A stretch of DNA of 45,756 bases from Fibrobacteria bacterium. GTDB lineage: Bacteria > Fibrobacterota > Fibrobacteria > UBA11236. Both the position numbers and the translations under genes were made by a program. The notes beneath the pieces are model-generated. The model was not told the origin of the DNA and did no database searches. It saw only the letters and a list, made by a program, of their open reading frames with translations. This document shows, one piece after another, positions 4,149 through 45,756 of this stretch. Where the stretch lies: positions 1 through 45,756 of the forward strand of contig JADGQO010000162.1 in the NCBI GenBank assembly GCA_017881725.1, read 5' to 3'. Each line of letters begins with the position of its first letter. Position 1 is the stretch's first letter.

Positions 4149-4677
4149 ATCGGCCAAAAGCTTTCCACCCGTCTGGCAGGTTGCGCAATAATTGGTTTCA
4201 TTCTCCCGCATGGCGAATGCGCTGCACGGGACTGCCACACACCGGGCAAGGCTCACCGTAACGTCCATGAACAGCCATTCCTTTGCGGAAAGCCGTGACC
4301 TTTTCTGGGAATCCGCCCGCAGCCTCGCATCGCAATGTTTCAGTCCATTCCGTCAACACAGCGCTCGTCGCGGCGAATTCGGCGCGCGACGCCTCCAACG
4401 GTTCCACCCCCACGGGGAATTGCAATTTCAAGGCCTCGTGTCCTTGAACAGCATGCAAAGCGGCCCGTTTTTTTGTTCCTGATTCGGTCAAAACCAGGGT
4501 TCCAAAATCGAAATCCATCGCCAAGAGGCCATTCGATTTGGGGATCGGGGCGGCTGCGGCCTTCCAATGCAAGCGGCCGGCCACCATTAAGTGCAAGGCG
4601 AGGAATTTTTCCTCCGGAAAAGCGAAAACCATGCGCTTGGAGCGACGTAACACATCCGTTACGGGTAATTCCGGCAT
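4149..4677 (-). pseudogene. Decayed formamidopyrimidine-DNA glycosylase (Fpg/MutM family)
   Basis: From ATG at 4677 the product begins MPELP, the invariant Fpg start with catalytic Pro and Glu, but jumps at once to VTDVLRRSKRMVF, so about 50-60 residues of the N-terminal domain are missing. It continues normally through FLALHLMVAGRLHWK and LTESGTKKRAALH. After EASRAEFAA it jumps to TSAVLTEWTE, losing the H2TH DNA-binding module. The zinc finger starts with GRYGEPCPVCGSPVQRIRH and hits a stop at 4198. One surplus G near 4206 explains this, because the next frame continues ENETNYCATCQTGGKLLAD. The last ~20 residues are also gone. Deletions are judged from family knowledge, not an alignment. A function is very unlikely. 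Confidence 0.85.
4647..4662. repeat. GTAAC-N6-GTTAC palindrome, copy 1
   Basis: Perfect dyad with a 6-bp spacer (ACATCC), extended to CGTAAC/GTTACG. It sits exactly at the N-terminal deletion junction (MPELP to VTDV) of the decayed glycosylase gene. Confidence 0.8.
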
Positions 4678-4739
4678 GGAGGGAAATATGCCGTTTAATT
4701 CATCCGCTGGCTTCTGGAAAAAGACGGGGCGTGAATCCG

Positions 4740-5921
4740 CTACAAAGCGAAATTCATAAAAGACGATTTTTGCCCGTTGCGAACGCCGTTGTCGTAGGAA
4801 TGGATCCGTTGCCAACCCACTTCAATGCGCGGGTTGGCGCGGAAGGGGATCCCGAAAAAATTCACGGTCTTGAATTGAAACCCGGTTTCCAACTGTTCAG
4901 AGCGAGTATAAAAATCCCCATGATCCAATCGCTTCAGAATTTTAGACCAGCGCAGAAAATCAAACGCGTAGAAATACGCCGTATGCATTTCCATTCGCTT
5001 GCCCCCGGGGTCCACCAAGGCGGCCCGGGCGAAAGTGAAGCCTAACAAGTCATAGGCGACGCCTTTATTGATCACGGGATCACCGCGTCCTCGCCAAGTG
5101 CGCTCCTGCTCGGAATCCCAGGCCGCTTTGAGCGTGAAGGCATCAAAGAAATCGAATTTGGCTGCATAGGATTCGCACACTGTCGTTGGAATAGGATCAA
5201 CTTCCGCGGCATCGACATAAAAAACATCCGGACCCCAATTGCGCAGGCTATACCCCGCCGAAGGCGTGAATACAAAAGCGGGGAAATGGAAATCCTCCGG
5301 AAAAGATAAGCGAGGGTCTACCAGCACGCCCAAATCGAATGCCCAACCGAAGGCATGGGCCTCGATTTGTTTTCGGGGATCAAAAGAAGAACCTGTTTTA
5401 CCCAAGTAACTATCATAATACTTGGCCGCTAAACCCACACTTACAGGCATTCCAAACCGTAGACCGGCGCCGAGCGAATACACGGATTCCTCGCCTAAAT
5501 TCTGATCCACATCTTCACCGAATTTATTGGCGATTGGAATATGCCCGAAATTGATATTGTTCCACGAATACCCAATACCCAAATCAAAACCGGTTTCCCC
5601 ATCCGGAAATACCAAGGCCATGGATCGGAAATTCTGGGACAAGCCCGGAAGACCAATTTTTGGAAGCAGATTCTGGTCGGAACTCGTAAAAAATGCTTGC
5701 GATCCCGTCGCACGTTGCAGCTCGGCCAAATTCGCAGGGTTGTAATACATGCTGGCCGCGCCCTCCGGTAAGGCCGCGCCGGATTGTACTGCGGAATAAC
5801 CCTCGCCGCCCGGAGGAGGCATCACCAAGGTGATGATAGCCGAACCGCCTTGCGCGAAGCAAAGTCGAAACGCCAGCATAGCCATTAAAATTACCGCGCG
5901 GGACGGTGCGCTCAGGGGCAT
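4740..5921 (-). CDS. PorV/PorQ-like outer-membrane beta-barrel protein (UPF0164 type)
   Basis: 393 residues with a signal peptide (ending about LCFAQG) and then SAVQSGAALPEGAASMYYNP, the signature of the PorV/UPF0164 family, in which a loop after the first strand carries a G.......YNPA motif. The remainder alternates hydrophobic strands and loops, as in a barrel of about 14-16 strands. PorV proteins shuttle substrates in type IX secretion, whereas UPF0164 proteins have unknown roles; which applies cannot be decided here. The lipoprotein upstream is on the same strand but 57 bp away and separated by a GTAAC-N6-GTTAC palindrome. Confidence 0.7.
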   Translation of the reverse strand: MPLSAPSRAVILMAMLAFRLCFAQGGSAIITLVMPPPGGEGYSAVQSGAALPEGAASMYYNPANLAELQRATGSQAFFTSSDQNLLPKIGLPGLSQNFRSMALVFPDGETGFDLGIGYSWNNINFGHIPIANKFGEDVDQNLGEESVYSLGAGLRFGMPVSVGLAAKYYDSYLGKTGSSFDPRKQIEAHAFGWAFDLGVLVDPRLSFPEDFHFPAFVFTPSAGYSLRNWGPDVFYVDAAEVDPIPTTVCESYAAKFDFFDAFTLKAAWDSEQERTWRGRGDPVINKGVAYDLLGFTFARAALVDPGGKRMEMHTAYFYAFDFLRWSKILKRLDHGDFYTRSEQLETGFQFKTVNFFGIPFRANPRIEVGWQRIHSYDNGVRNGQKSSFMNFAL

Positions 5922-5966
5922 GCGCGTTATCTAGAAAAACCAGCCGGAACATTAACCCGTCAGGGC

Positions 5967-5982
5967 GTAACGCAGACGTTAC
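5967..5982. repeat. GTAAC-N6-GTTAC palindrome, copy 2
   Basis: Perfect dyad with spacer GCAGAC; the stem is CGTAACG-like on both sides. The TAA stop codon of the minus-strand lipoprotein gene (5979-5981) is the centre of the right half-site. Confidence 0.85.
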
Positions 5983-6599: not shown

Positions 6600-6767
6600 G
6601 GGCGACTCCAATGTCAGGGACGAACCAGAATAATTCGATGTCGATACCGAATCAGGATAATCCGGCACTTTTAATTTACATGGATATTTAGACGTCTAAG
6701 GATTTAGACGCATAGGTCAGGCATATCCGCTACCCTTGGAATATACCGGCCCAATTCGAAAAAGTCC

Positions 6768-10740: not shown

Positions 10741-10756
10741 GTAACCCAGCGGTAAC
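10741..10756 (+). repeat. GTAAC-N6-GTAAC direct half-sites
   Basis: Two GTAAC half-sites in direct orientation with a 6-bp spacer (CCAGCG), the same spacing as in the palindromic copies. It lies in the divergent promoter region between 10666 and 10885, so it could be a regulator site. Confidence 0.55.
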
Positions 10757-11468: not shown

Positions 11469-12341
11469 ATGGCCCATCCCAAACGCCGCCTGCCGGACAA
11501 TGCTCCGGGCGATTTTTACGTCGATGACAGTTGCATCGATTGCGACACCTGCCGCTGGCTGGCACCGGAAACGTTTCACGCCGTGGCTGGACAGTCCGCC
11601 GTGCGCATCCAACCGGATGGTCCCGAGGCCCGTCGGCAAGCCCTCCTGGCCCTGACGGCTTGCCCCACCGCCTCGATCGGCACGGAGACGCCCGCCCCGG
11701 AAATGGCGGAGATCAGGCGTGCGTTTCCCTTGCTCCTCGCCGACACGGTGTATTATTGCGGTTACCATAGCTCCCATTCTTTCGGCGCGGCCAGCTACCT
11801 CATCGTCCGTCCAGAGGGCAACGTACTGGTGGACTCCCCGAGGCGTTCGGAAACATTGGCGGAAAGCATCGCAGCCTTGGGCGGAGTGCGCACCTTGTTC
11901 CTAACGCATGGCGATGACGTGGCGGATCATCAATACTGGCACGATCGATTCCAATGCGAGAGGATCCTCCACGCCGGAGACGTCACGCACGGCACACGCG
12001 GTGTCGAAAGAATCCTGGTAGGCGATGCGAACATTGAACTTGCGTCCGATCTTCTATTGATACCGGTGCCGGGCCACACGGAAGGCAGCGTAGTGCTTTG
12101 GTACCAAAACCGTTTTCTGTTTACGGGCGACCACTTGGCTTACTCGGAAAGACGCGGTCATCTCTACGCCTTTCAGGATGCCTGCTGGTATTCCTGGCCG
12201 GAATGCATCCGATCCATGGAGAAACTTGCAGGTTACCCCACCGAATGGGTGTTGCCGGGCCACGGCAGGAGATGGCAGGGTAACCAGGATGCCTGGATTC
12301 AGCAGATGGACGCGTGTATCCGCTGGATGAAGGCGCGATAA
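11469..12341 (+). CDS. Ferredoxin / metallo-beta-lactamase-fold hydrolase fusion
   Basis: 290 residues with two domains. Residues about 14-70 form a small single-cluster ferredoxin: CIDCDTC, then a distal Cys in LTACPTA. Residues about 85-290 form an MBL fold: LTHGDDVADH is the HxxxDH-type metal motif, VPGHTEGS gives the second His, FTGDHL the bridging Asp and LPGHG the last His. The fusion is known in plants and cyanobacteria and scattered bacteria, with an uncertain substrate (often compared with glyoxalase II or persulfide dioxygenase relatives). The product is cytoplasmic with no signal peptide. ATG at 11469; no strong ribosome site. Confidence 0.88.
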   Translation: MAHPKRRLPDNAPGDFYVDDSCIDCDTCRWLAPETFHAVAGQSAVRIQPDGPEARRQALLALTACPTASIGTETPAPEMAEIRRAFPLLLADTVYYCGYHSSHSFGAASYLIVRPEGNVLVDSPRRSETLAESIAALGGVRTLFLTHGDDVADHQYWHDRFQCERILHAGDVTHGTRGVERILVGDANIELASDLLLIPVPGHTEGSVVLWYQNRFLFTGDHLAYSERRGHLYAFQDACWYSWPECIRSMEKLAGYPTEWVLPGHGRRWQGNQDAWIQQMDACIRWMKAR

Positions 12342-12906: not shown

Positions 12907-13827
12907 ATGGAACTGATTTTCAAAGATGAAACTGCGATGCTGGACCAGGCGTTTATCGCCGATGCCGGGGAAGTCGCGTCTTTTCTCGTAAACGCGATGT
13001 ATCTGTTCGGGGATCAACGCGTCCAGGCGCTGGGCGGCTTCCCGGCCAAGGTAACTGCGGAGTTACTCCGGATGGGCCATGCCGTGGAGCCCTCGCGCGG
13101 AGCGCCGGTCGCCAAGATGGCGGGCGGCGGATTGTCGGCTGGCAGGGTGCCGGCCGGCAGGGTGCCGGGCGATTGGCCATCGCGCCGGAATAGCTCGGGC
13201 GGTTATGCGCGGGGCTGCAGGGCGCGGGGCGGCGAGACGCGGATGGTCCAATTGGAACGAGCGATTGGATTTGCCGATCAGGAAACCGATTTGGACTGGT
13301 TGCGATCCATGCGTCGCGACTTGGCGCCGGGAGGATTGTTGTGCTTTCATGCCTGGGATCGCGATCGCGCGTGGGGCCGTTCGGGATCGGATACCGCGCG
13401 GTTGGGAGAACGGGAGTACGCCATCGAACGGCGATTCGACCCGCGGGACGGCCGCGTGCGGGTGAGTCTCCGCGGGTCTGATGGGGATAGACCCTTCGGG
13501 GCCGGGTCCGCCAAGGGCTGGTCCGACAGGGTCGGGGAGGCGGGACTAAGTCCGGCTATGCCGGGGGAAAAACCGTTGGGGACCGCTTCGGTGCGCGCCT
13601 ACAATCTGGCGGAGATTGAGGCCATGCTGCAAACTTCCGGTCTACGGTTGGAACGGGCCTATGGCGATTGGACCGGGGGCAATCCGGAAGAATCGGGCGC
13701 GCGCACGGGACGGCTGATCATCGTGGCCAGCAAGCCCAGGGGCGGCCGGAAATACCGGCCGAATAGGGTAACTAAAAAGGGACGTCCCATCGGGGTTACG
13801 TCGGAAGATACGGGGAAGACGATATGA
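12907..13827 (+). CDS. Class I SAM methyltransferase-like protein, degenerate
   Basis: The start is ATG at 12907 with AAGGAGG seven bases upstream; the longer frame from 12808 would run through the terminator hairpin and is rejected. The 306-residue product has the outline of a class I methyltransferase: a helical lid (FKDETAMLDQAFIADAGEV), LGGFPAKVTAELLRMGHAVEP where motif I (normally GxGxG) should be, DLDWLRSMRRDLAPGGLLCF as motif IV/V, and a final GLRLERAYGDWTGG and RLIIVASKP. Motif I has lost its glycine pattern, and about 40 residues (SAGRVPAGRVPG and on) are low-complexity Gly/Arg/Ala sequence from GC-rich tandem repeats. Activity is doubtful. Overlaps the next gene by ATGA. Confidence 0.55.
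   Translation: MELIFKDETAMLDQAFIADAGEVASFLVNAMYLFGDQRVQALGGFPAKVTAELLRMGHAVEPSRGAPVAKMAGGGLSAGRVPAGRVPGDWPSRRNSSGGYARGCRARGGETRMVQLERAIGFADQETDLDWLRSMRRDLAPGGLLCFHAWDRDRAWGRSGSDTARLGEREYAIERRFDPRDGRVRVSLRGSDGDRPFGAGSAKGWSDRVGEAGLSPAMPGEKPLGTASVRAYNLAEIEAMLQTSGLRLERAYGDWTGGNPEESGARTGRLIIVASKPRGGRKYRPNRVTKKGRPIGVTSEDTGKTI
13051..13066. repeat. GTAAC-N6-GTTAC palindrome, copy 3
   Basis: Perfect dyad, spacer TGCGGA, extending to GTAACT/AGTTAC. It lies inside the methyltransferase-like coding region (AKVTAELL), where it brings in a rare TTA leucine codon. Confidence 0.8.
13141..13170 (+). repeat. 15-bp tandem repeat, two copies
   Basis: GGCAGGGTGCCGGCC at 13141-13155 is repeated at 13156-13170 (one mismatch at the last base positions). 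In frame it encodes AGRVP twice, at the start of the low-complexity insert of the methyltransferase-like protein. Confidence 0.7.
13768..13799. repeat. Nested palindrome with GTAAC/GTTAC ends
   Basis: GTAAC (13768-13772) and GTTAC (13795-13799) flank the perfect 10-bp palindrome GGGACGTCCC (13779-13788). The outer arms are 27 bp apart, unlike the 11 bp of the main family. It lies at the 3' end of the methyltransferase-like gene. Confidence 0.6.
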
Positions 13828-18923: not shown

Positions 18924-20147
18924 TCAATTTACGGCCGTGAGCGTGACGGGAGCCCCGGGCCGGATCTGGATGATGCCCGAAGTGATGATCGTGTCCCCGA
19001 CGTTCACGCCGCCGGTCAATTGCACCATGGTTTCGGTGCGCAAGCCCGCCTGCACGGAATGCGGCTCAGCCTTGCCGGCCTTATACAGGAAGACCTTGGG
19101 GCCTTTCGCATCGGCGGAGAGGGCTTCCGTGGGCACCATGATTGCCGCGTCGATGACCTGTAGCGGGACTTCGATGTTGGCGAAGGAACCGGGCAAGACC
19201 GAACCGGCCTGGTTCGGGCACAGGGCGCGTAAATGCAACGTGCGCGTGTCGGGATCGATTTTGGGATCGACGGCGTAGACCTTGGCCGCTTGCGCCTGAT
19301 CGAGGCCTTGCACCGTGAAGGTGATGGGCGTTCCGGGTTTGACCCATCCGGCGTATTTTCCGGGAATGGTGAAGTCCACCTTGACGGGCGTGACCATCTG
19401 CAATGTGGTGATGCGTGCGGAGGGGCTGACCAAGGCTCCCTCGCTGACGTATTTGAGGCCGATGACTCCCGCAAAGGGCGCGCGCAGTTCGGTTTTATCC
19501 GTCTGAGCCTTCAGCAATTGTTCCCCCGCCTTGGCGAGATTGAGGGCATTGAGCGATTGGTCATAGTCGCGCTGGCTCACGGCCTCGATTTTAAGCTGCA
19601 TGCGCATGCGGTATTCTTCATCATCGGCCAGCTTGCGTTGGTACTGGGCACGTAGGAAATTGGCTTGCAATTCGGCGTCGTCGATTTTCACCAGCAATTG
19701 GCCCTTATTGACCTTGGAGCCTTCCAGGAAAGCGATGCGGACGATTTTCCCGGATATTTCGGAGCGGATTTCCACTTCTTCGTTGGCCAGCACGGTGCCG
19801 GTGGCGGAAATACGATTATCGATGCGTTCGGTGTGGAGTACCTTGGCGGTTACGGGTAATCCGCCCATCACGGACGGAGCTCCTGACTGGGGATTCGCGG
19901 CTCCGGGAGCGGACGGGGATGCCGAACCCGGTGCGGTCGTCGGAGCGGCCTTGGCGTTAACCGGCGCGGAACCTGACGGGGCTCCGGAACCTTGACCAGG
20001 TATGCCCCCAGGACCGCCCGGACCCTGACCAGTGGCACCCGGGCCTTGACCGGCGGCGGCGGCGCGCGCGGCTTTGATTTTCGGATAGGCGATAAGTCCC
20101 AATACCGCAGCCACTATGGCCCAAATTGCGATGCGTTTGCCGGCCAT
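18924..20147 (-). CDS. RND periplasmic adaptor (membrane fusion protein)
   Basis: The start is ATG at 20147 with AAGGAG 9 bases upstream, giving 407 residues (MAGKRIAIWAIVAAVLGLIA, a signal anchor). A Gly/Pro/Ala/Ser-rich linker of about 80 residues (PGATGQGPGGPGGIPGQG and on) separates it from the barrel-sandwich part: GTVLANEEVEIRSEISGKIV, a helical hairpin and LRAPFAGVIGLKYVSEGALV, then the beta-barrel. This is the HlyD/AcrA family that bridges pump and TolC. The linker is unusually long. First gene of the three-gene operon and divergent from the Cus operon. Confidence 0.93.
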   Translation of the reverse strand: MAGKRIAIWAIVAAVLGLIAYPKIKAARAAAAGQGPGATGQGPGGPGGIPGQGSGAPSGSAPVNAKAAPTTAPGSASPSAPGAANPQSGAPSVMGGLPVTAKVLHTERIDNRISATGTVLANEEVEIRSEISGKIVRIAFLEGSKVNKGQLLVKIDDAELQANFLRAQYQRKLADDEEYRMRMQLKIEAVSQRDYDQSLNALNLAKAGEQLLKAQTDKTELRAPFAGVIGLKYVSEGALVSPSARITTLQMVTPVKVDFTIPGKYAGWVKPGTPITFTVQGLDQAQAAKVYAVDPKIDPDTRTLHLRALCPNQAGSVLPGSFANIEVPLQVIDAAIMVPTEALSADAKGPKVFLYKAGKAEPHSVQAGLRTETMVQLTGGVNVGDTIITSGIIQIRPGAPVTLTAVN

Positions 20148-20983: not shown

Positions 20984-22522
20984 TATCCGTCGATGAGGCA
21001 ACTAACCGTTATTACGAATGGGTCGGAAACCCGCTCCGGCCACGGACGAGGTTTCCTAATAAGGGACGCATCTTGGATAACCTACACGTTACTGATGGCG
21101 TTGGCTTTGGGGCCGACGGTGAGGATTTCGGCCCATGAAATGACCGACGATTCCTCGCATGGCGGTTCCCTGGAAGGAGTTTCCCGTGCGGGCGCGCCCG
21201 GAGGTGGCAATTCGTCCCTGGCCGAGAAAGATTCCATATCCGGAATTCATGCCGACTCGACCCGATGGTCCGAGCAAACCTGGGATCCCAAATCCTTGGT
21301 GCAATTGGCCTGGAAACGGAATTCCGGCATGCGCGCGCAGCGGCTGCAAGTGAAAGGCCTGCACTCCAACTCCAGCCATACGTGGTACCTGGACGCGCCG
21401 CAAGTCGGCGTGAACTTCTACCAAGCCCCGGTGGCGACCTTTCCCAACCCGATGGGCCGCCAATCGGAAGTCGACTATTCCGTGCAACAGGCCTTCCCCT
21501 TTCCCGGAAAAATCTCCGCCCGCATCGATGCCGTGCACCAGCATGCGGAAATGGGCGAGGCGGATTTGTTGGCCCTGCGGCGAAAGGTCGCGCGCATGGT
21601 ACGTGATGATTTTTACGCCTTGGATTTGACGCGGCAGCGGCAGGCCATCAATGACGAAAACCGCGCGCTGATGGTTCGCTTCATCGCCGTGGCCCGGCGG
21701 CAATACGAAGTCGGGCTTGGCCGCCAAGCCGACATTCTCCGGGCCCAAGCGGAGTTGACGCGGTTGCAATCGGACAGCATCGATCTCGCCGAGGCGCGCG
21801 CCTCCACGCTCGCGGACATGAACGCGCTGCTGGACTTCACTACGACGCGGGAATGGAATTTGGCGACGCCGCCGGATCCGAAACCCATCGATTGGACCTT
21901 GGAGCAATTGCGCCCGTTGATCGAAAAAGATCAGCCCGGATTGAAATCCATGCGCGTCGGGGTGGCCATGCGGGAAGCCGAATTGCGGGCGGCCGGCAAG
22001 GAATATTTGCCCGATATCATGGTGGAGGGGATGTATAAGGACATGTTGCGGATGCCCCCGGGTTCGATGGCGACGAAGCTGGAGGACTTTTGGTCGTTGG
22101 GAGTCAGTGTCAACGTCCCCTTCGCATTTTGGTCCGCGCCCAAATACCAGGCTGCCATCGCCGAAGGCCGGGCCAACCTGGAAAGCGCGGAGCAAGCTTA
22201 TGCGGATTCGCGCAATGGCATGCTGGCGGCGGCACAAACCGCGCTGCAAAAATCGCGTACCGGCGCGGCGCGCCTGCGGCTAAATGTTGAAGCCCTGGTG
22301 CCGCAATCCGAACAAGCTTTGGTTTCCATGCTGGCCGCCTATGAGGGAGGCAAGGAAGAGTTTACTCCGCTATTGGAAGCCTACCGGGCAAGATGGGAAG
22401 CGCGCGAGAACATGGCTACCGCGCGGGCCAACGCATTATCGACACTGGCGGATTTGGAAGACGCCGTGGGCATGGACTTGGACGAAATCGCGCGCTGGTT
22501 GGCGCCGGGAGCTGGAAAATGA
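20978..22522 (+). CDS. CusC/CzcC-like outer-membrane factor (TolC family)
   Basis: 514 residues from ATG 20978 or 509 from ATG 20993; neither has a ribosome site. A hydrophobic segment (WITYTLLMALALGPTVRISA) is a late signal sequence. Two TolC repeats follow: SLVQLAWKRNSGMRAQRLQV, VDYSVQQAFPFPGKISARID, RRQYEVGLGRQADILRAQAE, and VNVPFAFWSAPKYQAAIAEG in the second half. FPFPGK is typical of heavy-metal type factors. It forms the outer-membrane channel of the CusABC-like pump. It overlaps cusB by ATGA (22519-22522), so expression is coupled. Confidence 0.88.
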   Translation: MGYPSMRQLTVITNGSETRSGHGRGFLIRDASWITYTLLMALALGPTVRISAHEMTDDSSHGGSLEGVSRAGAPGGGNSSLAEKDSISGIHADSTRWSEQTWDPKSLVQLAWKRNSGMRAQRLQVKGLHSNSSHTWYLDAPQVGVNFYQAPVATFPNPMGRQSEVDYSVQQAFPFPGKISARIDAVHQHAEMGEADLLALRRKVARMVRDDFYALDLTRQRQAINDENRALMVRFIAVARRQYEVGLGRQADILRAQAELTRLQSDSIDLAEARASTLADMNALLDFTTTREWNLATPPDPKPIDWTLEQLRPLIEKDQPGLKSMRVGVAMREAELRAAGKEYLPDIMVEGMYKDMLRMPPGSMATKLEDFWSLGVSVNVPFAFWSAPKYQAAIAEGRANLESAEQAYADSRNGMLAAAQTALQKSRTGAARLRLNVEALVPQSEQALVSMLAAYEGGKEEFTPLLEAYRARWEARENMATARANALSTLADLEDAVGMDLDEIARWLAPGAGK

Positions 22523-23973
22523 AAAACATCACCGTTAAAAAATGGATTCGGGTTTTCGGAATACTGGCCTTGGCGTCCGCGACTTTACTGGCGGCGTTTG
22601 CCTGCCGGGGTAACACGTCGGATACCTCCGCCCAAGGCGGGGCCGCGGCTGGGAAAGACACCGCCGCCAAAAGCCAGGGCGGCGCCCAGGCGGAAGAGAA
22701 GCTTTACCATTGCGCCATGCATCCCTGGTACATCGCGCATGCGCCCGGCCATTGTCCCATTTGCGGCATGGAACTGGTGCCCTTCATCCAGGAAAAAGGC
22801 GGAAACGGGGTGCCGGGCAACGGCGGGGCAGCTGGGAGTGGGTCCACCGGGGGTGGGGCCGCCATCGTGCAAGTCGATTCGGCCTCCATCCAGAAAATCG
22901 GAGTGAAGACCCAAAAGGTGGGCCGCCGCGATCTACGCGGGGAAGTCCGGGCCAGCGGAAAAATAAAGGTGGAAGAAAACCGCGTGACCATCGTGAACTC
23001 CCGCGTGACCGGATACGCCGAAAAACTCCACGCGAACACCACGGGCCAGCGCGTGCGCAAGGGAGAAACCCTCCTGGATATTTACAGCCCGGATTTGTCC
23101 AGCGCCCAGGAGGAATATTTGCAGGCGCTGCGATACGCCCGCGGACCGGGCAACAACGCCGTGACCGGCTCGCAGGATTTAGTCGAAAGCTCTCGTCTCC
23201 GGCTTCTCAATTGGGGCGTTCCGTCCCTGGTCGTAGATGCCTTGGCGCGCGACGGCAAGGTCCGCCACACCCTGCCCATCGCTTCACCGGCTTCGGGGAT
23301 CATCCTTGAGAAGATGGTGAACGAAGGCCAGAGCATCGGCATGGGCATGGAGTTGTATAAGTTGGCCGACCTTTCCCGCGTGTGGGTGGTAGCCTACGTC
23401 TACCAACGGGACCTGCCCTTGTTGTCGACGGGATCCCGCGCCGAGGTGGAAATGGATTATGCCGGACGAAAACCCATTCCCGGCCGCGTGACCTTCATCT
23501 CCCCGGTGCTCGACGAGGCTTCGCGCACGGCGGAAATCCGCGTCGAAGTGGCGAATACACCCGCCATGGATCTGAAGCCGGAAATGTTCGCGACCGTGCA
23601 TTTCCAAGGGGCCGTGCACCAGGGTGTCATAGCCGTGCCGGATCAGGCCATCATCCGATCGGGACGGCGAAATCTGGCCGTCATCGCCCTGGGTGCGGGG
23701 TATTTCCAGCCGCGCGAAGTGACCTTGGGAACGTCGGCCGACGGCTATGTGGAAATTCTCTCCGGCATCGAAGAAGGGGACGACCTGGTGGTGTCCTCGC
23801 AATTCCTCATCGATTCGGAAAGTAACCTGCGCGCCGCCGTGCAAAAACTGACTACCATGAATCCGGCCGGGGAAAATGCAGGCGCGGCCGCAGACGGCGC
23901 ACCGATGAATAAGCCCGGCATGGGAAACTCCGCCGGACAGGGTAACATGGCGGATACCGCCGGAAAGCATTGA
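22519..23973 (+). CDS. cusB: CusB-like periplasmic adaptor with heavy-metal-binding domain
   Basis: The start is ATG at 22519 (overlap with the previous stop); 484 residues. The signal ends with lipobox-like LLAAFAC (Cys about 29). Next comes a small metal-binding domain, YHCAMHPWYI plus CPICGMELVPF (about residues 70-95), found in many CusB and CzcB proteins. The barrel-sandwich hybrid and helical hairpin follow (LRGEVRASGKIKVEENRVTI, YSPDLSSAQEEYLQALRYA), then ILEKMVNEGQSIGMGMELYK and the barrel. The C-terminus is Met, Gly and Asn rich (NKPGMGNSAGQGNMAD), a further possible copper site. Ends 9 bp before cusA. Confidence 0.93.
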   Translation: MKNITVKKWIRVFGILALASATLLAAFACRGNTSDTSAQGGAAAGKDTAAKSQGGAQAEEKLYHCAMHPWYIAHAPGHCPICGMELVPFIQEKGGNGVPGNGGAAGSGSTGGGAAIVQVDSASIQKIGVKTQKVGRRDLRGEVRASGKIKVEENRVTIVNSRVTGYAEKLHANTTGQRVRKGETLLDIYSPDLSSAQEEYLQALRYARGPGNNAVTGSQDLVESSRLRLLNWGVPSLVVDALARDGKVRHTLPIASPASGIILEKMVNEGQSIGMGMELYKLADLSRVWVVAYVYQRDLPLLSTGSRAEVEMDYAGRKPIPGRVTFISPVLDEASRTAEIRVEVANTPAMDLKPEMFATVHFQGAVHQGVIAVPDQAIIRSGRRNLAVIALGAGYFQPREVTLGTSADGYVEILSGIEEGDDLVVSSQFLIDSESNLRAAVQKLTTMNPAGENAGAAADGAPMNKPGMGNSAGQGNMADTAGKH

Positions 23974-27925: not shown

Positions 27926-27926
27926 G

Positions 27927-28273
27927 CGCGTCGGGCGGACCCGGCAGAAGCTATCCGAAGCCGTCGTGGCTTTGGTCCGCGAGCGAGGTTACGCGAATGT
28001 TACGGTGGGCGATATTATCCGCAAGGCCAAGGTGGGGCGGTCCTGCATTATTTGGACGGCATCGTGCGGAAAGGCATTCTGGAAACCTACCAGCCGACCC
28101 AAGGAATGACGGGAGAACTCCTCCAACTTTTTGAAATGAAAGTCGATGCCGCTGCGGCGGCGATTACCACTCTCCTAAATGGTTGGTTGAAACGCGGGAT
28201 GAAAATACATCCGGATAAAATGGCCCGCCAAAGCGAAGCCCTATTGGATAGTCTATTCACACGCATTCGTTGA
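27927..28273 (+). pseudogene. TetR-family regulator remnant
   Basis: The helix-turn-helix VALVRERGYANVTVGDIIRK followed by AKVGRS is clear in one frame (27930-28043). The frame then shifts, and the C-terminal helices appear as LHYLDGIVRKGILETY and ALLDSLFTRIR up to TGA at 28273. The region between helix 3 and the ligand-binding core is missing and no start codon remains. Two GTTAC half-sites 6 bp apart lie in the helix-turn-helix. Confidence 0.75.
27988..28003 (+). repeat. GTTAC-N6-GTTAC direct half-sites
   Basis: Two GTTAC in direct orientation, spacer GCGAAT, inside the TetR remnant. May be chance, as it encodes RGYANVT of the helix-turn-helix. Confidence 0.35.
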
Positions 28274-29891: not shown

Positions 29892-32147
29892 ATGCACCGC
29901 CTAAATGTCCGCGCACTATGCGCCGGACCCTTGTTGTTATTGGCGTTCCAAGCCGCCGAGGCTTCGCTCGATTTCAATACCTACGCAATCGTCAACCAGA
30001 CTTCCCGCGTTCTCGTGAACGGAAAGTACCAGGACAGCACGCGAATCTCCTACAATCTGACGCGACTGGGATCCACGTCATTGGAAGCCACCTCGCTCAC
30101 GTTGACGTCACATGGAAGTTACCTGGCGGTGGTGGAAGAGGCGACCCTGACCTCCAACGTCGAGACGCGCCCGAATAACATCACGCGCGATTTCCTGATG
30201 CAGGGATCCTTGCCCGTTCCACCCCTAGCGGCGGTGCATTCCCTAGCCGTGTACCACGGCGATACCCTGTACCAGGCCCATTTGAAAAAATCGGTCTATT
30301 CGCTGGATGACCAGTTTTTCGATACCACCGCCTTGCAAGCCACGCTGGATTCCCGCGTCGCCTTCCTGCAACAACTCGGGGACAATTCCTACGAAGCCAC
30401 CTTTTCGAAATTGACCCTGGGCGAACCCGTGCGGATTCGCATCGAGTACGACATTCCTTTTTCCGGAGCCCCGAGCGCGTCGCTGACCTTGCCCGTTCTA
30501 TTCCATCCTTCGGGTCAACCACCGCGCCAGGCGCAAATCACATTTTTCGAAAAGGCCTCCAACATGCCGGTCCTGCAATGGCTGAGCGATGCCGGGCGCG
30601 TGACCTTGGTCGACGCGGGCACGCAAACCGTCGCATACCAAAGCCGGTTCACATTCCGCCGCGATGAAAACACAAAAACCGTCGCCAGCCTGCAAGCCAC
30701 CACCTTCGAATCCGGGGGGTTCAAGGGCAACTACCTGCTTTTCAAAGCCGGGCTGAACGATTCCCTCATGGACGAACTTTCCCGGCCCTTGGAAGTCTCT
30801 TTCTTGTGGCGATGGAATCCGCCCTATCATTTCGTCGAGACCCAGAACGGCCTCAAGACCTTGTCCGCGCTGGGACAAACGGTCGTCCTGGAAGCCGCGA
30901 CCTTGAAACAAATCATCACCGAACTTTCCCCGCGCGGCCACCGTTTCGGACTGTTCCGCAGCGCTCCGGGCCAGCCGGATACCTTGTTTCCGCCTTCCGA
31001 ATACGCAGGAGACGGCTATCATAAACTCCTGGCCTATTTGGATCAGTTCACGGCGGATCGCATTTACGCCGACTACAAGGACAACCCTGCCGATAAACCG
31101 GATTGGGTCACGACCACTTGGACCGATTCCGGCGAAATCGTAAAAAGCCGCAATGCATTCTTGGAGGTACTGTCCCGCATCCGCAATGGATTCAGCGCAA
31201 GACCGGAAGCCTTGAAGCATATCGGCATGGTGGGCTTCGGCAGTGCGCCCAGCACGTTGCTGGACTTGAATGATCCGACCGCTTTAGAGTCCATCCTGGA
31301 CAGCGTCACGCTTTCCAACGTCAATGCCGTTTGGCCGGGAGTGAATTTGCCCCGATGCCTGCAACTGAAAAGCAGCGCCACGCTTAGGCCCCTGTCCGTC
31401 AATTCACCCTTGGCCGCGACCCTGCCTCCGCTCCTCTTTCCGGTGTACCAGCCGACCTCGGTGGAGTATCGGGCCTTCACCCCGTCACGCAGCCACGCCA
31501 TCGTCCTGCCCTTCAATAAAAACGCGGAACGCGAAGCCGTAGTCAAGTCGTCCAATGCCTTCGACGACACCGTGGAATTGCAGGGCATCGACGCGCTGGG
31601 ACGTAAAACCCGCATCCTGACCCTTACCCCCCGTACCATCCACGTTACCCAGGATTCAGGCATGGCCCGTTTGTGGGCGGCCGATCCGGACCGGATTTCG
31701 GAAGCGAGCGAGGTGGATTTGGGGCTGCGGTACGGTATCCTGACCAAGGGGACCTATTGGTCGGCCGGGGTGGGCGACGGCATGACAGCGGGGGTAACAC
31801 CTGGAACCGTTCCCGGAGGGAATCCAATCGGCATTCACGCTCTCCCGAAAACCGTGCGGGCAGGCGCGCGCGCGGGATTCCGACAAGCGGGAGGATACCT
31901 CGCATTGACCGGATTGGAAAGCTTCGGTCCGAACGCATCGCGTGCTTTACATTCCAATCCCGTGCTTGAGGTTTACGATGTCCGGGGGAAACTCATTTTA
32001 CAACTCTCCTTGTCCGCGTTCCGCGCCGGTGACGGTTACAGCGTTCCCCTGGAATTATTCCGACGCTTGGGCCAGGAAAGACTTTTCATAATGCTCGCAG
32101 GATTCCGCCAAGTGCAACCCTTCGTCTTGAACCTTGGAGGCCGATAA
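29892..32147 (+). CDS. Large secreted protein with VIT-like domain
   Basis: 751 residues with a signal peptide (LCAGPLLLLAFQAAEA). Residues about 75-205 follow the VIT (vault/inter-alpha-trypsin) plan: DFLMQGSLPVPPLAAVHSLA, then YQAHLKKS, FSKLTLGEPVRIRIEYDIPF. Near 590 comes ARLWAADPDRISE and GLRYGILTKGTYWSA, like the helical end of VIT-vWA proteins (LWAR.KI.EL...YGLVTPYTS). The middle has no visible MIDAS motif (DxSxS), so any vWA part is lost or very diverged. The last ~65 residues (LEVYDVRGKLILQLSLSAFR) look like a type IX-style sorting domain. Likely at the cell surface. It shares TAATG with the next gene. Confidence 0.6.
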   Translation: MHRLNVRALCAGPLLLLAFQAAEASLDFNTYAIVNQTSRVLVNGKYQDSTRISYNLTRLGSTSLEATSLTLTSHGSYLAVVEEATLTSNVETRPNNITRDFLMQGSLPVPPLAAVHSLAVYHGDTLYQAHLKKSVYSLDDQFFDTTALQATLDSRVAFLQQLGDNSYEATFSKLTLGEPVRIRIEYDIPFSGAPSASLTLPVLFHPSGQPPRQAQITFFEKASNMPVLQWLSDAGRVTLVDAGTQTVAYQSRFTFRRDENTKTVASLQATTFESGGFKGNYLLFKAGLNDSLMDELSRPLEVSFLWRWNPPYHFVETQNGLKTLSALGQTVVLEAATLKQIITELSPRGHRFGLFRSAPGQPDTLFPPSEYAGDGYHKLLAYLDQFTADRIYADYKDNPADKPDWVTTTWTDSGEIVKSRNAFLEVLSRIRNGFSARPEALKHIGMVGFGSAPSTLLDLNDPTALESILDSVTLSNVNAVWPGVNLPRCLQLKSSATLRPLSVNSPLAATLPPLLFPVYQPTSVEYRAFTPSRSHAIVLPFNKNAEREAVVKSSNAFDDTVELQGIDALGRKTRILTLTPRTIHVTQDSGMARLWAADPDRISEASEVDLGLRYGILTKGTYWSAGVGDGMTAGVTPGTVPGGNPIGIHALPKTVRAGARAGFRQAGGYLALTGLESFGPNASRALHSNPVLEVYDVRGKLILQLSLSAFRAGDGYSVPLELFRRLGQERLFIMLAGFRQVQPFVLNLGGR

Positions 32148-32915: not shown

Positions 32916-32931
32916 GTAACTTGAACGTTAC
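32916..32931. repeat. GTAAC-N6-GTTAC palindrome, copy 4
   Basis: Spacer TTGAAC. It lies between two convergent genes, embedded in a longer dyad GATGCG...CGCATC (32911-32937). Confidence 0.88.
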
Positions 32932-32956: not shown

Positions 32957-32972
32957 GTAACTTAAACGTTAC
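32957..32972. repeat. GTAAC-N6-GTTAC palindrome, copy 5
   Basis: Spacer TTAAAC; 41 bp after copy 4 and nearly identical to it (GTAACTTRAACGTTACCGCA). The right half-site supplies the TAA stop (32969-32971) of the chrA gene. Confidence 0.88.
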
Positions 32973-34346: not shown

Positions 34347-35035
34347 TGTCCCGCAGCGCCCGATTGTTGAGCCTGCTGGAATCATTGCGCCGCCGCCGCT
34401 ACTCCGTAACCGGCAAGGTACTGGCGGAGGAGTTGGGGATTAGCCTCCGGTCACTCTACCGGGACATTGCCACCTTGCAAACGCAGGGCGCGCGCATCGA
34501 CGGGGCCGCAGGTGTGGGATTCCGGTTGCGTCCCGGTTTCCTCATGCCTCCCCTCATGTTTTCCAACGAGGAAATCGAAGCCCTAGTATTAGGCTCGCGT
34601 TGGGTAGCTGATCGCGCCGACGCTCCCCTCGCCACCGCCGCATCGGGGGCCTTGGCCAAAATCGCCTCCGTGCTCCCGGAAAACCTGCGTGAGGATTTGG
34701 AAGGCTCCGGCCTGGTGGTGGGTCCGTCCCGCGAACCCAAGCCCGACGGCGCGATTTCCACGGCCGTGCGTAAAGCCATGCGCGAGGAATTTAAGGTTCG
34801 GGTCGATTATCTGGACGCCCAAAACCGGAAGTCGCAACGCACCATCTGGCCGATAGCCCTCGGGTTTTTCGAAAGCATCCAGGTCGTCGTCGCATGGTGC
34901 GAACTGCGACAGTCCTTCCGTCATTTCCGCCTGGATCGCATTGGGAATGTCCAACCGTTACCTACGCGTTACCCTAAAAAGAGGCGGATTTTGTTAGGGC
35001 AGTGGCGCGCGTCGGAGGGCATTCCGGAATCATGA
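34346..35035 (+). CDS. YafY-type transcription regulator (HTH + WYL)
   Basis: 229 residues. An N-terminal winged HTH of the HTH_11 type (LLSLLESLRRRRYSVTGKVL, then GISLRSLYRDIATLQTQGA) is followed by the WYL region: PPLMFSNEEIEALVLGSRWV and FKVRVDYLDAQNRKSQRTI, WPIALGFFESIQVVVAWCEL, FRHFRLDRIGNV. The classic W-Y-L triad is altered. Such proteins are DNA-binding switches that sense small or nucleic-acid ligands; the target is often next door, here perhaps the VOC gene at 35242. It ends TGA at 35035. Confidence 0.9.
   Translation: MSRSARLLSLLESLRRRRYSVTGKVLAEELGISLRSLYRDIATLQTQGARIDGAAGVGFRLRPGFLMPPLMFSNEEIEALVLGSRWVADRADAPLATAASGALAKIASVLPENLREDLEGSGLVVGPSREPKPDGAISTAVRKAMREEFKVRVDYLDAQNRKSQRTIWPIALGFFESIQVVVAWCELRQSFRHFRLDRIGNVQPLPTRYPKKRRILLGQWRASEGIPES
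34957..34972 (+). repeat. GTTAC-N6-GTTAC direct half-sites
   Basis: Spacer CTACGC; located in the last 25 codons of the WYL regulator gene. Same 11-bp periodicity as the palindromes. Confidence 0.5.
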
Positions 35036-35663: not shown

Positions 35664-35679
35664 GTAACTCACAGGTTAA
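35664..35679. repeat. Near-match to GTAAC-N6-GTTAC
   Basis: GTAAC-TCACAG-GTTAA, one base off, flanked by TGA..TCA to give a longer imperfect dyad. Between the convergent VOC and DUF1161 genes. Confidence 0.45.
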
Positions 35680-36291: not shown

Positions 36292-36855
36292 ATGCTTAAA
36301 ATCATCATCGCGACGACGGTTTTGGTCGGCCTGGTTCCATTCGGGGTCGCCGCGAGGGATTCCGTCGACGCAGCTAACGCCGCCAATGCTTCCTCATCCG
36401 AAATCTCCCGTACCGCCCATGTTACCTACGATGCCGCCTTCTGGTCCTGGAAAACCGTTTCGTTGCGGGGCGATTCCGTGAACATGGCGAAATTCAAAGG
36501 CCGCTACGTGCTTCTCAATTTTTGGGGGGAATGGTGCCCCAAATGCCGGGAGGAAATCCCTTTCTTGCGCAAGCTCCAAGCCAGGTATGGTTCGGATCGG
36601 CTGGTGATTATCGGGATGTTGAAATCGGCGGATCAAGTCAAGGCCAAGGCCATGGCGGCCGACAGCGGCATGACCTGGACCCAGGTGGAGATGACTCCCG
36701 CCATGGAACGGGGTTTCCATATCGAAAAGTTCCCCACCAACCTACTCTTGTCTCCAGAGGGCGCCATCGTCATGGATGGCTTCAGCGGGCATTGGAAGGA
36801 CTTCCTCCGTTGCATGAACGAAAAGTCCACGATCAAGCAGACGTCCATCCGGTAA
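36292..36855 (+). CDS. TlpA/ResA-like periplasmic thioredoxin
   Basis: 187 residues with signal peptide IIIATTVLVGLVPFGVAA. The thioredoxin fold is plain: FKGRYVLLNFWGEWCPKC carries the CxxC redox pair, followed by REEIPFLRKLQARYG and the cis-Pro region EKFPTNLLLSPEGAIV. The protein probably reduces disulfides of exported proteins or apocytochromes. It has no ribosome site. Only 4 bp separate its stop from the stop of the convergent catalase-like gene. Confidence 0.9.
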   Translation: MLKIIIATTVLVGLVPFGVAARDSVDAANAANASSSEISRTAHVTYDAAFWSWKTVSLRGDSVNMAKFKGRYVLLNFWGEWCPKCREEIPFLRKLQARYGSDRLVIIGMLKSADQVKAKAMAADSGMTWTQVEMTPAMERGFHIEKFPTNLLLSPEGAIVMDGFSGHWKDFLRCMNEKSTIKQTSIR

Positions 36856-40462: not shown

Positions 40463-40478
40463 GTAACTGGAGGGTTAC
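40463..40478. repeat. GTAAC-N6-GTTAC palindrome, copy 6
   Basis: Spacer TGGAGG. The right half-site contains the TAA stop (40475-40477) of the minus-strand YdcH-like gene; it lies in the promoter zone of the cNMP-FHA gene. Confidence 0.85.
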
Positions 40479-42127: not shown

Positions 42128-42155
42128 GTAGATTCTGCCTGGTCATGGGAACCGG

Positions 42156-42691: not shown

Positions 42692-42844
42692 TTCCGAAAA
42701 CGGCTGGAGTTGCGTTCTTAGGGCCTGCATATTTCCGAAACTCGACCCTCCCGGGCCGACAAGCTTGTTGATAAACACTTCCGTCTCGTAATATTTCCAT
42801 GGGTGTGGCCGCGCGGCGCGCATACCGATGGGATGAATTCGGCC

Positions 42845-43186: not shown

Positions 43187-45110
43187 TCCGGGGACTCTTC
43201 AACCGCATTCACGCCCGGGGATTCCCGGAACCCTCCGCTTAAGTTCGACGTGGCGCGGCTTGCGGGCCTGCCTGCTCGCCATCGCGGCTCTTTCGCTGTT
43301 CATGCAATGCAATTCGGGCGGGACGACTTCCAGCCCGGCGGAGAATTTCGTTTCCATCAAATTAAACGACTCCCTGTCCCGCTTCGACAGCGTGTCCGTG
43401 CTGATTGTCGCTGCGGGAGATACCAGCCGCGTGATCGGTAAAGCCTGGTCCGGGCCCTTGCCCAATCCCAAGGCCATTCCCGATTTCCGGCTCGCGGACG
43501 GGACGAAGACCATCGTCTCCATCCACGTCCTCGGGTATAAAAACGGAGGCGCCGTCGTTCTGAGCATGCTCATGTCCAATCAGGCAGGCGTCACGGTGGT
43601 GCAACAATTTCCCCAGCAGAACATCCCGCCCAACAAGGATCCCACGGCGACAGCAACCGATCCCAAATCTGATACGGCGCGCACGCCGGTTCCCGCAAAC
43701 ACGACGACCAAACCGACCACGCCCCCGCAGGGGACGGACCTCTCCACCGTTCTGGCCAACTTGACGCCCTCCGCCGGGAGCTTGTCGCCCGCCTTCAATC
43801 CCGCCCTCCACGAGTACACCCTCACGCTGGCAAGCACCGCGAGCACGGTATCATTTACCGCCACGCTGGTCTCGACCAAAGCGTCCCTGGCATTTAACGG
43901 AGCGCTTCTGGATCCCCGAACGACCAGTCCTCCCATCATGCCGGCCATTGGAAACAAATCCGTAGCCGTCCAAGTTTCCATCGGAGCCGATGTCACGATC
44001 TACACGGTCAAGGTGGTGTGGTTACCGATTAAGGGCGGCGACACCGGCGCTAAATATTCCGATCCGCGGAATTCCGGCGGCGGAACTTGGAAATACCGCA
44101 CTCGCATCGCCGTCAACGGCCAAAGCCTGGGTCTGGGCGCCGGGATCGCGGTGCGCAACGCGCCCCTCCTAATCCGGTTGACCGGGGACAATTTCAAATT
44201 TTCCGAGGCGGACTCCCTGGGCAACGATATCCGGTTTTCCAAGGCCGATGGCACGCCGCTCGATTATGAAGTCAGCCGGTGGGACGCCCAGGCTCTCCAA
44301 GCGGAAATTTGGGTGCGCGTCGATACCGTGTACTGCGACGATACGACCCGCATCCGGATGTACTGGGGTAACCCTGCCGCTACCTCAGCGGCGGACTCCA
44401 AAGGCGTTTTCCAAGTCGCCAACGGTTTCAACGGCGTCTGGCATCTGGGCGAAAGCCCGAAAGGCGCCGAAGGCGAATTCAAGGACGCGGTAGGCCGAAA
44501 TGACGGTACCGGCGGCGGTGGGAATGCGAATTACCTGACTACCCGGATCGCGGCGGTTACCGGATTCGGACAGGACTTTGGTTCTCCGAATTGCAAAGGC
44601 ACCATCTCAATTCCCAATGCCATGGATCCGGGGCCGTCGGGATGGACCTTCCAATCCTGGGTGCGGGTGCGCGGCTCCAACGAAGGCGTCCTGTTCAGCA
44701 AATGCAACGGCGCCGACCGGACGCACGGCCGCTTCCAAATCGTCGTCAAAGCCGGCAACGGCCATCAACTGGCGCTGGCCAGCTTGGCTTCCATATGCCT
44801 CACCAACGTCTACCTTCCGGACAACGCATCCGTGCTCTTGACCATCGTCTACGACGGGCAAAACGCAGACTTCTACGTGGATGGTTTCCTGCGCGAAAGC
44901 CATAAGTGGACCCAGGATCCGGACTCAACGGCGGCTGTCACTATCGGAAGCGATGCCCCCTCGGATATCGCGGCGGGATTCCAGGGCTATTTGGACGAGG
45001 TCTGGATTTCTTCGACGCCCCGCAAACCGGAATGGACCCGGCTGGCGTTTGAAAACCAAAAGACGACGACCAATCTAATCTCAATGCTCCCTTTCGTCTC
45101 AGCGGAATAA
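43179..45110 (+). CDS. Large lipoprotein: Cadherin-like, DUF2341 and LamG domains
   Basis: ATG at 43179; 643 residues. The signal has lipobox-like LSLFMQC. A Thr/Pro linker (ARTPVPANTTTKPTTPPQG) precedes a Cadherin-like beta-sandwich (LTPSAGSLSPAFNPALHEYT, about 187-283), a DUF2341 domain (WKYRTRIAVNG, DNDIRFSKADG-like, TRIRMYWGNP; 304-427) and a LamG/concanavalin-like domain (GWTFQSWVRVRGSNEGVLF and YLDEVWIS; 434-624). This architecture is frequent in Fibrobacterota surface proteins and probably binds polysaccharide or other cells. Confidence 0.88.
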   Translation: MDNPGTLQPHSRPGIPGTLRLSSTWRGLRACLLAIAALSLFMQCNSGGTTSSPAENFVSIKLNDSLSRFDSVSVLIVAAGDTSRVIGKAWSGPLPNPKAIPDFRLADGTKTIVSIHVLGYKNGGAVVLSMLMSNQAGVTVVQQFPQQNIPPNKDPTATATDPKSDTARTPVPANTTTKPTTPPQGTDLSTVLANLTPSAGSLSPAFNPALHEYTLTLASTASTVSFTATLVSTKASLAFNGALLDPRTTSPPIMPAIGNKSVAVQVSIGADVTIYTVKVVWLPIKGGDTGAKYSDPRNSGGGTWKYRTRIAVNGQSLGLGAGIAVRNAPLLIRLTGDNFKFSEADSLGNDIRFSKADGTPLDYEVSRWDAQALQAEIWVRVDTVYCDDTTRIRMYWGNPAATSAADSKGVFQVANGFNGVWHLGESPKGAEGEFKDAVGRNDGTGGGGNANYLTTRIAAVTGFGQDFGSPNCKGTISIPNAMDPGPSGWTFQSWVRVRGSNEGVLFSKCNGADRTHGRFQIVVKAGNGHQLALASLASICLTNVYLPDNASVLLTIVYDGQNADFYVDGFLRESHKWTQDPDSTAAVTIGSDAPSDIAAGFQGYLDEVWISSTPRKPEWTRLAFENQKTTTNLISMLPFVSAE

Positions 45111-45139
45111 ATCCATCAAATCCAAATTCGCGACGCTAA

Positions 45140-45756
45140 TCACATAGTGAACTTTCCGCCCGCAAACGGATCGCCGCCCAAGGCCTCGTTGCGTCGCCAG
45201 ATGGAAAAGCGCCGGCGGGATACATCGGCGTGGAAATCCACCAACCGGCTGACTACGGGGCCTTGGCGCAACATCCGATAAGCGCCGGAGGCTTCCGCGA
45301 GCGCGATGAAACATTCATGCTCCTCCTCCGTGTGGCACCAAGCCATCATGGCCGCGCCGGGTTTCTGCAAGGAGGCGGACTTACTCAGAATTTTTTCCGG
45401 CGCGAAGTACCGCAGGGGAAGTCCCCATAAGAGCAGATGCCGGGGCAACACGAAAGGATAAAAGAAGGAAACCAGGTCGTAATCGCCTTCCCCGTAAGCG
45501 AGGAAATCTCCGGTCGCATAGGTAACTTTCGAGTTACCTGTCTGGGCGATATAGGCTTCGGCATAATCGCGCCGGGAGCGCAAATCAGGATAGATGCCGA
45601 AACCGTCGAGTTCGATACCTTCCAGAACGGGCCATTCCGCTTCCGGCTTCGCGACGGAATTCCCCATGCGCCGCAGCCACCGTTCCAATCCGAATACATA
45701 GTGCCAATCCTGGCAGCCGACGTCGAGGGCCTTCAATGGACCTGCCGCATTGGAGC
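45140..45756 (-). CDS. Class I SAM methyltransferase-like protein (5' end outside)
   Basis: The frame is open to the right edge; the TTG at 45736 is not a real start because the sequence reads SNAAGPLKALDVGCQDWHYV. ALDVGCQDW is a modified motif I (GC.D instead of GCGxG). GIELDGFGIYPDLRSRRDYA is motif II with the acidic residue, and YATGDFLAYGEGDYDLVSFF is motif III/IV. The C-terminus is normal. Substrate unknown. Convergent with the LamG gene, 29 bp apart. Confidence 0.7.
   Translation of the reverse strand, partial: SNAAGPLKALDVGCQDWHYVFGLERWLRRMGNSVAKPEAEWPVLEGIELDGFGIYPDLRSRRDYAEAYIAQTGNSKVTYATGDFLAYGEGDYDLVSFFYPFVLPRHLLLWGLPLRYFAPEKILSKSASLQKPGAAMMAWCHTEEEHECFIALAEASGAYRMLRQGPVVSRLVDFHADVSRRRFSIWRRNEALGGDPFAGGKFTM
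45522..45537. repeat. GTAAC-N6-GTTAC palindrome, copy 7
   Basis: Spacer TTTCGA; the longest version, AGGTAACT-TTCG-AGTTACCT, an 8-bp perfect stem with a TTCG loop. It lies inside the methyltransferase-like coding region (GNSKVTY). Confidence 0.88.

Follow-up and report, generated by a model that had tools for sequence, protein, structure and literature searches.

GTAAC-N6-GTTAC, a spaced dyad dispersed through the genomes of one Fibrobacterota genus and clustered in unrelated phage contigs

Few kinds of short motif are known to be kept by a bacterial genome in such abundance, and behind each of them (Chi, uptake sequences, HIP1 and matS) a basic mechanism was uncovered or a lasting question was raised. 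The sites of MatP (matS), SlmA and Noc are dispersed palindromes read by dimers, regional in distribution and present in tens of copies, and the stoperators of mycobacteriophages are repressor sites dispersed in a phage genome. Here, we analyzed a symmetric site, GTAAC-N6-GTTAC, in a stretch of 45,756 nucleotides (contig JADGQO010000162.1, hereafter the window) from a metagenome-assembled genome (MAG) of the Fibrobacterota, and counted it in the rest of this source genome, in related genomes and in viral contigs. The site is new in form: it is a spaced dyad with the look of a protein-dimer target, it occurs in its phylum in one genus and one outlier, and it is clustered in unrelated phage contigs. 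No paper reporting GTAACN6GTTAC was found in the open-access literature, and those titles and opening lines of abstracts that broader searches returned are silent on it.

The site differs from those of MatP, SlmA and Noc in that the source genome holds more than 1000 of them and in that they are spread evenly along one contig of 301,813 bases. A viral contig, L577, carries a stoperator-like pattern made of the same half-sites, but the sites described here are chromosomal and genome-wide, and the L577 flanks do not fit the host preferences. Chi is oriented and stands about once per 3-5 kb, a density like that of the site. Chi is also a contiguous octamer, whereas the present site is a spaced palindrome without polarity, its one-mismatch forms on the 301,813-base contig (G002:C14, of the relative G002) pointing 39 one way and 42 the other. 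According to the cited passages, a use of Chi in telling self from non-self has been proposed and Chi is over-represented in lambdoid phages without recombinases, which makes it the closest parallel for the gain of a host mark by phages (PMC3784561). Like HIP1 and the alternate HIPs of cyanobacteria, as they appear in the passages cited, the site is palindromic, highly iterated (far above expectation and dispersed genome-wide) and lineage-limited, and forms deviating by one nucleotide occur (PMC4390886). In HIP1 the octamer is contiguous and such sequences, in the same passages, number ~500-2500 per Mb and are tied to methyltransferases (PMC4390886), whereas the present dyad is spaced, the source genome has ~100 exact copies of it per Mb (~300 if one mismatch is allowed), and in four of the genomes that bear it HsdS was not found. 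With the DNA uptake sequences (DUS) and uptake signal sequences (USS) it shares hundreds to thousands of copies, many of them intragenic, and in Pasteurellaceae these show a bias to gene termini; the DUS and USS printed in the cited paper are contiguous and non-palindromic (PMC2346458), unlike a symmetric spaced dyad with phage clusters.

Abundance, spacing and lineage limits

We call near-site any match to GTAAC-N6-GTTAC with at most one mismatch in the ten half-site bases. The seven exact copies claimed in a preliminary description of the window were all found (Table 1). None of 100 dinucleotide shuffles of the window reached seven (shuffle mean 0.00), in agreement with the ~0.03 copies which that description had expected. 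The two near-matches it had named are real but are just two of the 17 one-mismatch sites present, so that the abundance was understated. Altogether, the window holds 24 near-sites (7 exact and 17 with one mismatch), compared to a shuffle mean of 0.20 and a maximum of 2. At spacers of 0-30 bp other than 6, a single exact inverted pair was detected, at spacer 22.

The whole source genome (5.22 Mb) contains 513 exact sites compared to 4 for a reversed-pattern control, and 1569 near-sites compared to 135, while exact pairs at the twelve spacers from 7 to 18 come to 21 in sum. In 415,743 bases of this genome, spacer 6 gave 51 exact, 107 one-mismatch and 89 two-mismatch sites; for the remaining spacers between 0 and 15, the counts per spacer were 0-2, 0-12 and 57-126, respectively. 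The fixed 6-bp spacer therefore holds in the window, in this sample and in the whole genome, and a chance origin was rejected on the basis of the shuffles, the reversed-pattern controls and the spacer controls. Neither of the two outcomes by which the preliminary description had proposed that the pattern be judged, a genome-wide count close to expectation or an equal enrichment of other spacers, was observed. Stretches L100-L119 of the source genome were drawn from contigs known to contain exact sites and show, with the window included, 12.3 exact sites per 100 kb compared to 9.8 genome-wide. In seven stretches taken without such selection (114,498 bases) there are 6 exact sites, and 24 sites in all.

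The source organism is an uncultured member of the phylum, its four best UvrA relatives (74-79% identity) being MAGs named Fibrobacteres or Fibrobacteria. Exact sites were counted in 167 Fibrobacterota genomes. In the genus, six genomes hold 60, 83, 210, 252, 311 and 513, a genome of the sister genus (G009) holds 23, and the other 160 hold 0-6. Near-sites number 655-1569 in the genus genomes (reversed control 75-135) and 77 in G009 (control 15), while G006-G008 have 19-25, compared to 33-124 for the control. Within Fibrobacterota, enrichment of the site is thus confined to one genus and one outlier. The genome-wide dispersal that had been suggested by analogy with HIP1 and matS is supported by these counts. 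No replacement palindrome of comparable strength was found in small samples (15-80 kb each) of G006, G008, G010 and G012. A site-bearing genus beside site-free sister genomes offers a natural comparison for finding the reader.

Form, placement and turnover of the site

Two-mismatch sites are near background in the source genome (89 compared to a mean of 71.9 over seven other spacers). Among its 107 one-mismatch sites, the mismatch falls on half-site position 4 in 56 cases, on position 3 in 19, on position 2 in 18, on position 1 in 10 and on position 5 in 4. Such a sharp mismatch threshold with a graded tolerance, laxest at position 4, is as would be expected for binding with a threshold. Weak base preferences at positions -5, -4, -2, -1, 6, 9, 16, 17, 19 and 20 give a span of ~26 bp (-5 to +20); G or C is favored at -1 and C at both -5 and -4, T is scarce at -2 and A is scarce at the second spacer base. 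The preference profile of the exact sites was symmetrized; the table of all 158 sites of a first sample of the source genome was not, yet the preferences are present on both sides.

Mirrored flank and spacer bases pair no better than shuffled ones in 5 of 6 position pairs, and the remaining pair, -3/18, is marginal (52 paired compared to 41 expected, 0.046 of shuffles, among six tests). A hairpin or terminator is disfavored, as pairing does not extend into the flanks with covariation. Little covariation together with two-sided preferences suggests the site of a dimeric reader of double-stranded DNA, so that the earlier proposal, a dimer reading half-sites separated by one helical turn, is supported as far as the DNA can speak for it. 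A mobile mini-palindrome, also proposed earlier, was rejected because the copies share just the ten core bases and weak flank preferences, spacer and flanks varying from copy to copy.

Gene context was taken from our own open reading frame (ORF) caller and not from a standard annotation. Among the 158 sites of the first sample, 121 lie within ORFs, 26 between them and 11 span an ORF end, which confirms the mixed coding, intergenic and 3'-end placement first described in the window. None of the 33 exact sites inside ORFs is in frame 2, where GTAAC would create a stop. Placement was analyzed in three samples: the source genome (543,207 bases, 185 sites), G002:C14 (101 sites) and four other relatives (118 sites). 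In this order, the observed to expected ratios are 0.86, 1.00 and 0.92 for coding DNA, 0.96, 0.84 and 0.86 for divergent intergenic DNA and 1.03, 0.83 and 1.61 (p 0.11) for tandem intergenic DNA. The enrichment upstream of genes that marks the operators of a transcription factor is therefore not seen, and the earlier remark that the copies do not sit like a normal operator is borne out, as none of the three samples has a clear promoter bias. An excess in convergent intergenic DNA of about 5-fold at the first count shrank to 2.5-fold (p 0.053) in the sample of the source genome and to 1.8- and 0.9-fold in the relatives. Along G002:C14 the gene context of the sites follows genome proportions and the gaps between sites are exponential (Kolmogorov-Smirnov p 0.32), that is, spacing is random, with 2-11 sites per 20 kb.

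An autoregulated reader gene with clustered sites was considered and rejected. Two exact sites lie within 30 bp of each other at three places in the genome, and neither of those outside the window suggests a regulator: by our ORF reading, one pair lies inside an ORF resembling a permease and the other just past the end of one resembling coaE. A recC-like gene of the source genome (L115:12234-16094) contains five sites. Such a gene was found in 8 of 8 genomes searched, site-poor G006 included, and in the source genome a RecB-kind helicase adjoins it. Uptake sequences are reported, in the passages cited, to favor genome-maintenance genes (PMC2346458).

Turnover was counted in 62 codon-aligned pairs from three regions of the source genome (the window, L115 and L117) and five relatives, alignments below 40% identity being dropped; the count covers aligned coding DNA, and window sites 4647 and 13051 lie outside it. 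Only 8 of the 62 orthologous pairs retain a near-site. Identity over the ten core bases (0.50) is below that of nearby control positions (0.64), yet full 10/10 core identity is commoner at sites, with 11% compared to 3% at controls. This count corrected an early impression, formed on few sites, that positions are strongly conserved, and it is mostly density that is kept rather than single positions. Sites do not significantly override conserved amino acids (4 of 17 core codons compared to 45 of 336 nearby, p 0.27).

Phage contigs carrying the site

Viral contigs were scanned for pairs of exact sites no more than 30 bp apart, which yielded 89 stretches. Of these, 65 hold just two or three near-sites; several of the richer ones (L265, L314 and L289) are simple repeats, as judged by sequence or even spacing. 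Three microviruses of one clade, L260, L330 (=L245) and L331 (=L301), contain 8, 9 and 6 sites over 4.5-5.0 kb; in each, one cluster within ~140 bp, with steps mostly of 17-18 bp, accounts for 7, 5 and 5 of them, respectively. The L260 cluster ends at the start of a replication-initiation ORF. In the 79 other L260 major capsid relatives (80 of 99 kept), at least three sites occur in L330 and L331 only, while 5 have one or two and 72 have none. A further microvirus, L409, has 5 sites (these microviruses measure 4.5-6 kb). The tailed phage L446 (=L266), identified by its terminase and portal, carries 14 sites in 21.4 kb, with pairs at 17-18 bp, and the 79 other terminase relatives (80 of 84 kept) have 16 sites together, which is near background.

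The 17-18 bp step is shared by the phage clusters and the chromosome. In the source genome, four of 137 gaps between sites measure 17-18 bp, and direct repeats of half-sites occur five times at 17 bp and five times at 18 bp. No site pairs less than 60 bp apart were found in the smaller samples of relatives. In contig L544 (40,023 bases), the stretch 707-1650 also presents eight sites in ~200 bp outside called ORFs, neighbors being mostly 17-19 bp apart, and a further pair inside an ORF; the contig has ten sites in all.

To compare flanks, the host preferences were used as a score and each phage was set against 2000 random draws from its own contig. This control was preferred because an earlier one (229 sites, with 8 cluster or repeat contigs left out) consisted of contigs that were often A+T-richer, which lowered its mean to -6.6. 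The L446 flanks score 1.63 bits compared to -2.96 at random places (0 of 2000 draws as high) and 1.95 for held-out host sites. Draws as high numbered 0 of 2000 for L330, 7 for L331, 5 for L409 and 0 for L544. Tetranucleotide profiles were compared with 47 references. The nearest to L446 is G002, followed by another G002 stretch, site-free G006 and G000. G000 comes first by 0.01 for L331 (0.53 compared to 0.52) and for L409 (0.58 compared to 0.57), second for L260 and 11th for L544. The link between phage and host is strongest, while still suggestive, for L446. A 22-bp match between L446 and the window (E 0.002) falls within coding sequence and was not accepted as a link.

Other viral contigs contain the half-sites in a different setting. 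L577 (12,528 bases, IMGVR_UViG_3300027832_000038) resembles Betaproteobacteria in composition; its dispersed sites, 14 exact and one near-exact, share a longer core, roughly CGGTAACCGNNYGGTTACCG, and look like dispersed phage operators of a separate system. Its flanks do not match the host preferences, random draws scoring as high in 583 of 2000 cases, and a Pfam search of ten L577 reading frames returned an AAA ATPase only and no reader candidate. L529 and L563 (two parts of IMGVR_UViG_3300014502_000006) have 38 and 23 near-sites, with other spacers also high (12.3 and 7.7 per spacer); these are probably coding repeats and not this motif. In L261 (9942-10002) and L328 (7547-7607), three exact sites stand just upstream of a small ORF that looks by eye like a helix-turn-helix regulator. 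These small ORFs are a lead to protein families able to read GTAACN6GTTAC.

Candidate explanations and other features of the window

We consider it an even call that the site is recognized by a putative dimeric protein of the genus which binds double-stranded DNA and marks or anchors the cell's own DNA. Each subunit would read one GTAAC half-site, the half-sites being 11 bp apart and on the same face of the helix, with weak contacts over ~26 bp. The ~650-1570 near-sites per genus genome (75-135 being background) would be kept since density matters, and positions would come and go. Once bound, the protein would either act as a nucleoid or segregation anchor for the cell's own DNA or label that DNA as self in the manner of Chi. 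Phages of such hosts would have acquired site clusters to be handled as host DNA. What is observed is the site with its fixed spacing and mismatch threshold, the preferences on both sides of it, its dispersal and turnover, its restriction to a lineage, and the phage clusters with the same 17-18 bp step; from these we infer the protein, its dimeric state, its marking or anchoring role and the host of the phages. Compared with a methylation target or an uptake sequence, a mark or anchor is the better fit for a site that is density-kept, mostly position-free, non-polar, dimer-like and clustered in phages of different families.

Several observations weigh against a reader that marks or anchors DNA. 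The reader protein was not found by HsdS-domain searches or among the genes beside paired exact sites. Selection on more than 1000 weak sites is demanding, whereas a mutational or transfer drive needs none. The threshold is not equally sharp everywhere, two-mismatch sites being in excess in G001 (30 compared to 12.4), G002 (23 compared to 11.6) and G004 (20 compared to 8.6). The surroundings of stop codons are enriched 2.30-fold in the source genome (30 sites compared to 13.1 expected, p 4e-5), with ratios of 1.20 in G002:C14 and 1.42 in the four relatives; this bias would not be predicted for a position-blind mark and resembles that of uptake sequences. As for the phages, clustered sites share flanks, so that the flank draws overstate independence, and L260 matches the host flank preferences weakly (53 of 2000 draws as high). 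With 11 references, a WOR-3 genome is nearest to L260 (0.55 compared to 0.46 for G000) and L330 (0.50 compared to 0.40). Composition and flanks, on which the phage hosts are proposed, are suggestive, with small margins, and composition points to the family at most. Finally, L544 combines a similar cluster and flank fit with a composition that is not genus-like, and the mark may therefore not be bound to the genus.

A narrower possibility, on the doubtful side, is a nucleoid or segregation anchor without self-recognition, which would extend the logic of MatP, SlmA and Noc to the whole chromosome and on which phages would hitch-hike. The random, non-polar dispersal is consistent with such an anchor, and through their clusters phages could attach their DNA to the nucleoid. 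However, matS is confined to Ter, and no regional clustering was seen in 301,813 bases of G002, the assemblies being fragmented enough for gradients from origin to terminus to escape notice. The site could also be a Chi-like self-identity mark whose reader, instead of a nuclease acting on single strands, would be a dimer bound to double-stranded DNA; host DNA would be recognized by a minimum density of sites irrespective of position, and unrelated phages (ssDNA microviruses and at least one tailed phage) would escape through tandem clusters. We put this forward tentatively and with more doubt than belief; the phage clusters make the self-recognition hypothesis testable.

An uptake sequence, for which the competence machinery would prefer site-bearing fragments, uptake and recombination filling the genome without any function of the single copy, appears unlikely. 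Copy number and random placement are as for DUS and USS, which in the passages cited reach almost 1,500 copies in Neisseria and, for USS in Pasteurellaceae, favor gene termini (PMC2346458). The stop-codon bias of the source genome and the occurrence of sites where constraint is low, as seen in their core identity, also argue for it. The ComEC family (PF03772) of the competence channel was found in 10 of 10 genomes searched, but these include the three site-free genomes G006-G008. Furthermore, a spaced symmetric dyad is unlike the contiguous asymmetric DUS and USS of those passages (PMC2346458), and cell-to-cell transformation does not account for dense phage clusters.

We regard as distinctly improbable a HIP1-like methylation site, at which an orphan methyltransferase with a bipartite target would modify the A residues and a methylation-linked repair bias would create and keep sites. 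An N6 spacer between half-sites is usual for Type I and Type IIB targets; preferences outside the half-sites are unusual for methyltransferase targets, and the mismatch tolerated most removes the adenine at half-site position 4. The HsdS domain PF01420 was found in only 3 of ten genomes searched (G000, G001 and G005) and not in site-bearing G002, G003, G004 and G009 (the last 87% complete), other methyltransferase families not having been searched. A Type I or IIB target was consequently rejected as the general explanation, as HsdS was not found in 4 of the 7 site-bearing genomes, and the bipartite restriction-modification site of the preliminary description did not find support within that scope. 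The site is palindromic, highly iterated and lineage-restricted as HIP1 is in the cited passages (PMC4390886).

The operator of a global transcription regulator with CRP-like geometry (5-N6-5) is very improbable: spacing and symmetry fit CRP/FNR or XRE-type dimers and, judged by eye, certain viral pairs spaced by 23 bp resemble the operators of phage repressors, but no clear promoter enrichment was seen in the three samples and positions turn over.

Table 1. Exact and one-mismatch copies of GTAAC-N6-GTTAC in the window
Feature	Position	Context and aligned relatives
Exact site	4647..4662	Aligned position also has a near-site in L020 and L028, and in L021 once the alignment is extended by 60 bases
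Exact site	5967..5982	3' end of minus-strand ORF
Exact site	13051..13066	Within ORF; one-mismatch site in 3 of 4 aligned relatives, two mismatches in the fourth
Exact site	32916..32931	Convergent intergenic; first of a pair 41 bp apart
Exact site	32957..32972	Second of the 41-bp pair; overlaps 3' end of minus-strand ORF
Exact site	40463..40478	3' end of minus-strand ORF
Exact site	45522..45537	Within ORF
One-mismatch site	314..329	
One-mismatch site	731..746	
One-mismatch site	1988..2003	Retained in G002; two mismatches in G005
One-mismatch site	10741..10756	Outside called ORFs
One-mismatch site	12221..12236	Retained in 3 of 4 aligned relatives, spacer changed
One-mismatch site	19838..19853	Retained in G001, not in G003
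One-mismatch site	21077..21092	Near-match named in the preliminary description
One-mismatch site	22610..22625	
One-mismatch site	23942..23957	
One-mismatch site	27988..28003	
One-mismatch site	30107..30122	
One-mismatch site	31633..31648	
One-mismatch site	34406..34421	
One-mismatch site	34957..34972	
One-mismatch site	35664..35679	Near-match named in the preliminary description
One-mismatch site	36410..36425	
One-mismatch site	44368..44383	

In the window, Rfam at gathering thresholds returned 0 matches and ARAGORN 0 genes. Around the exact site at 4647, positions 4149-4665 of the minus strand form a block conserved at the DNA level in relatives and not called as a gene by the ORF caller; by eye, we take its end to resemble the zinc finger of formamidopyrimidine-DNA glycosylase. 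A contig labeled Candidatus Doudnabacteria (L023), whose UvrA shares 65% identity with the one in the window, is possibly mis-binned.

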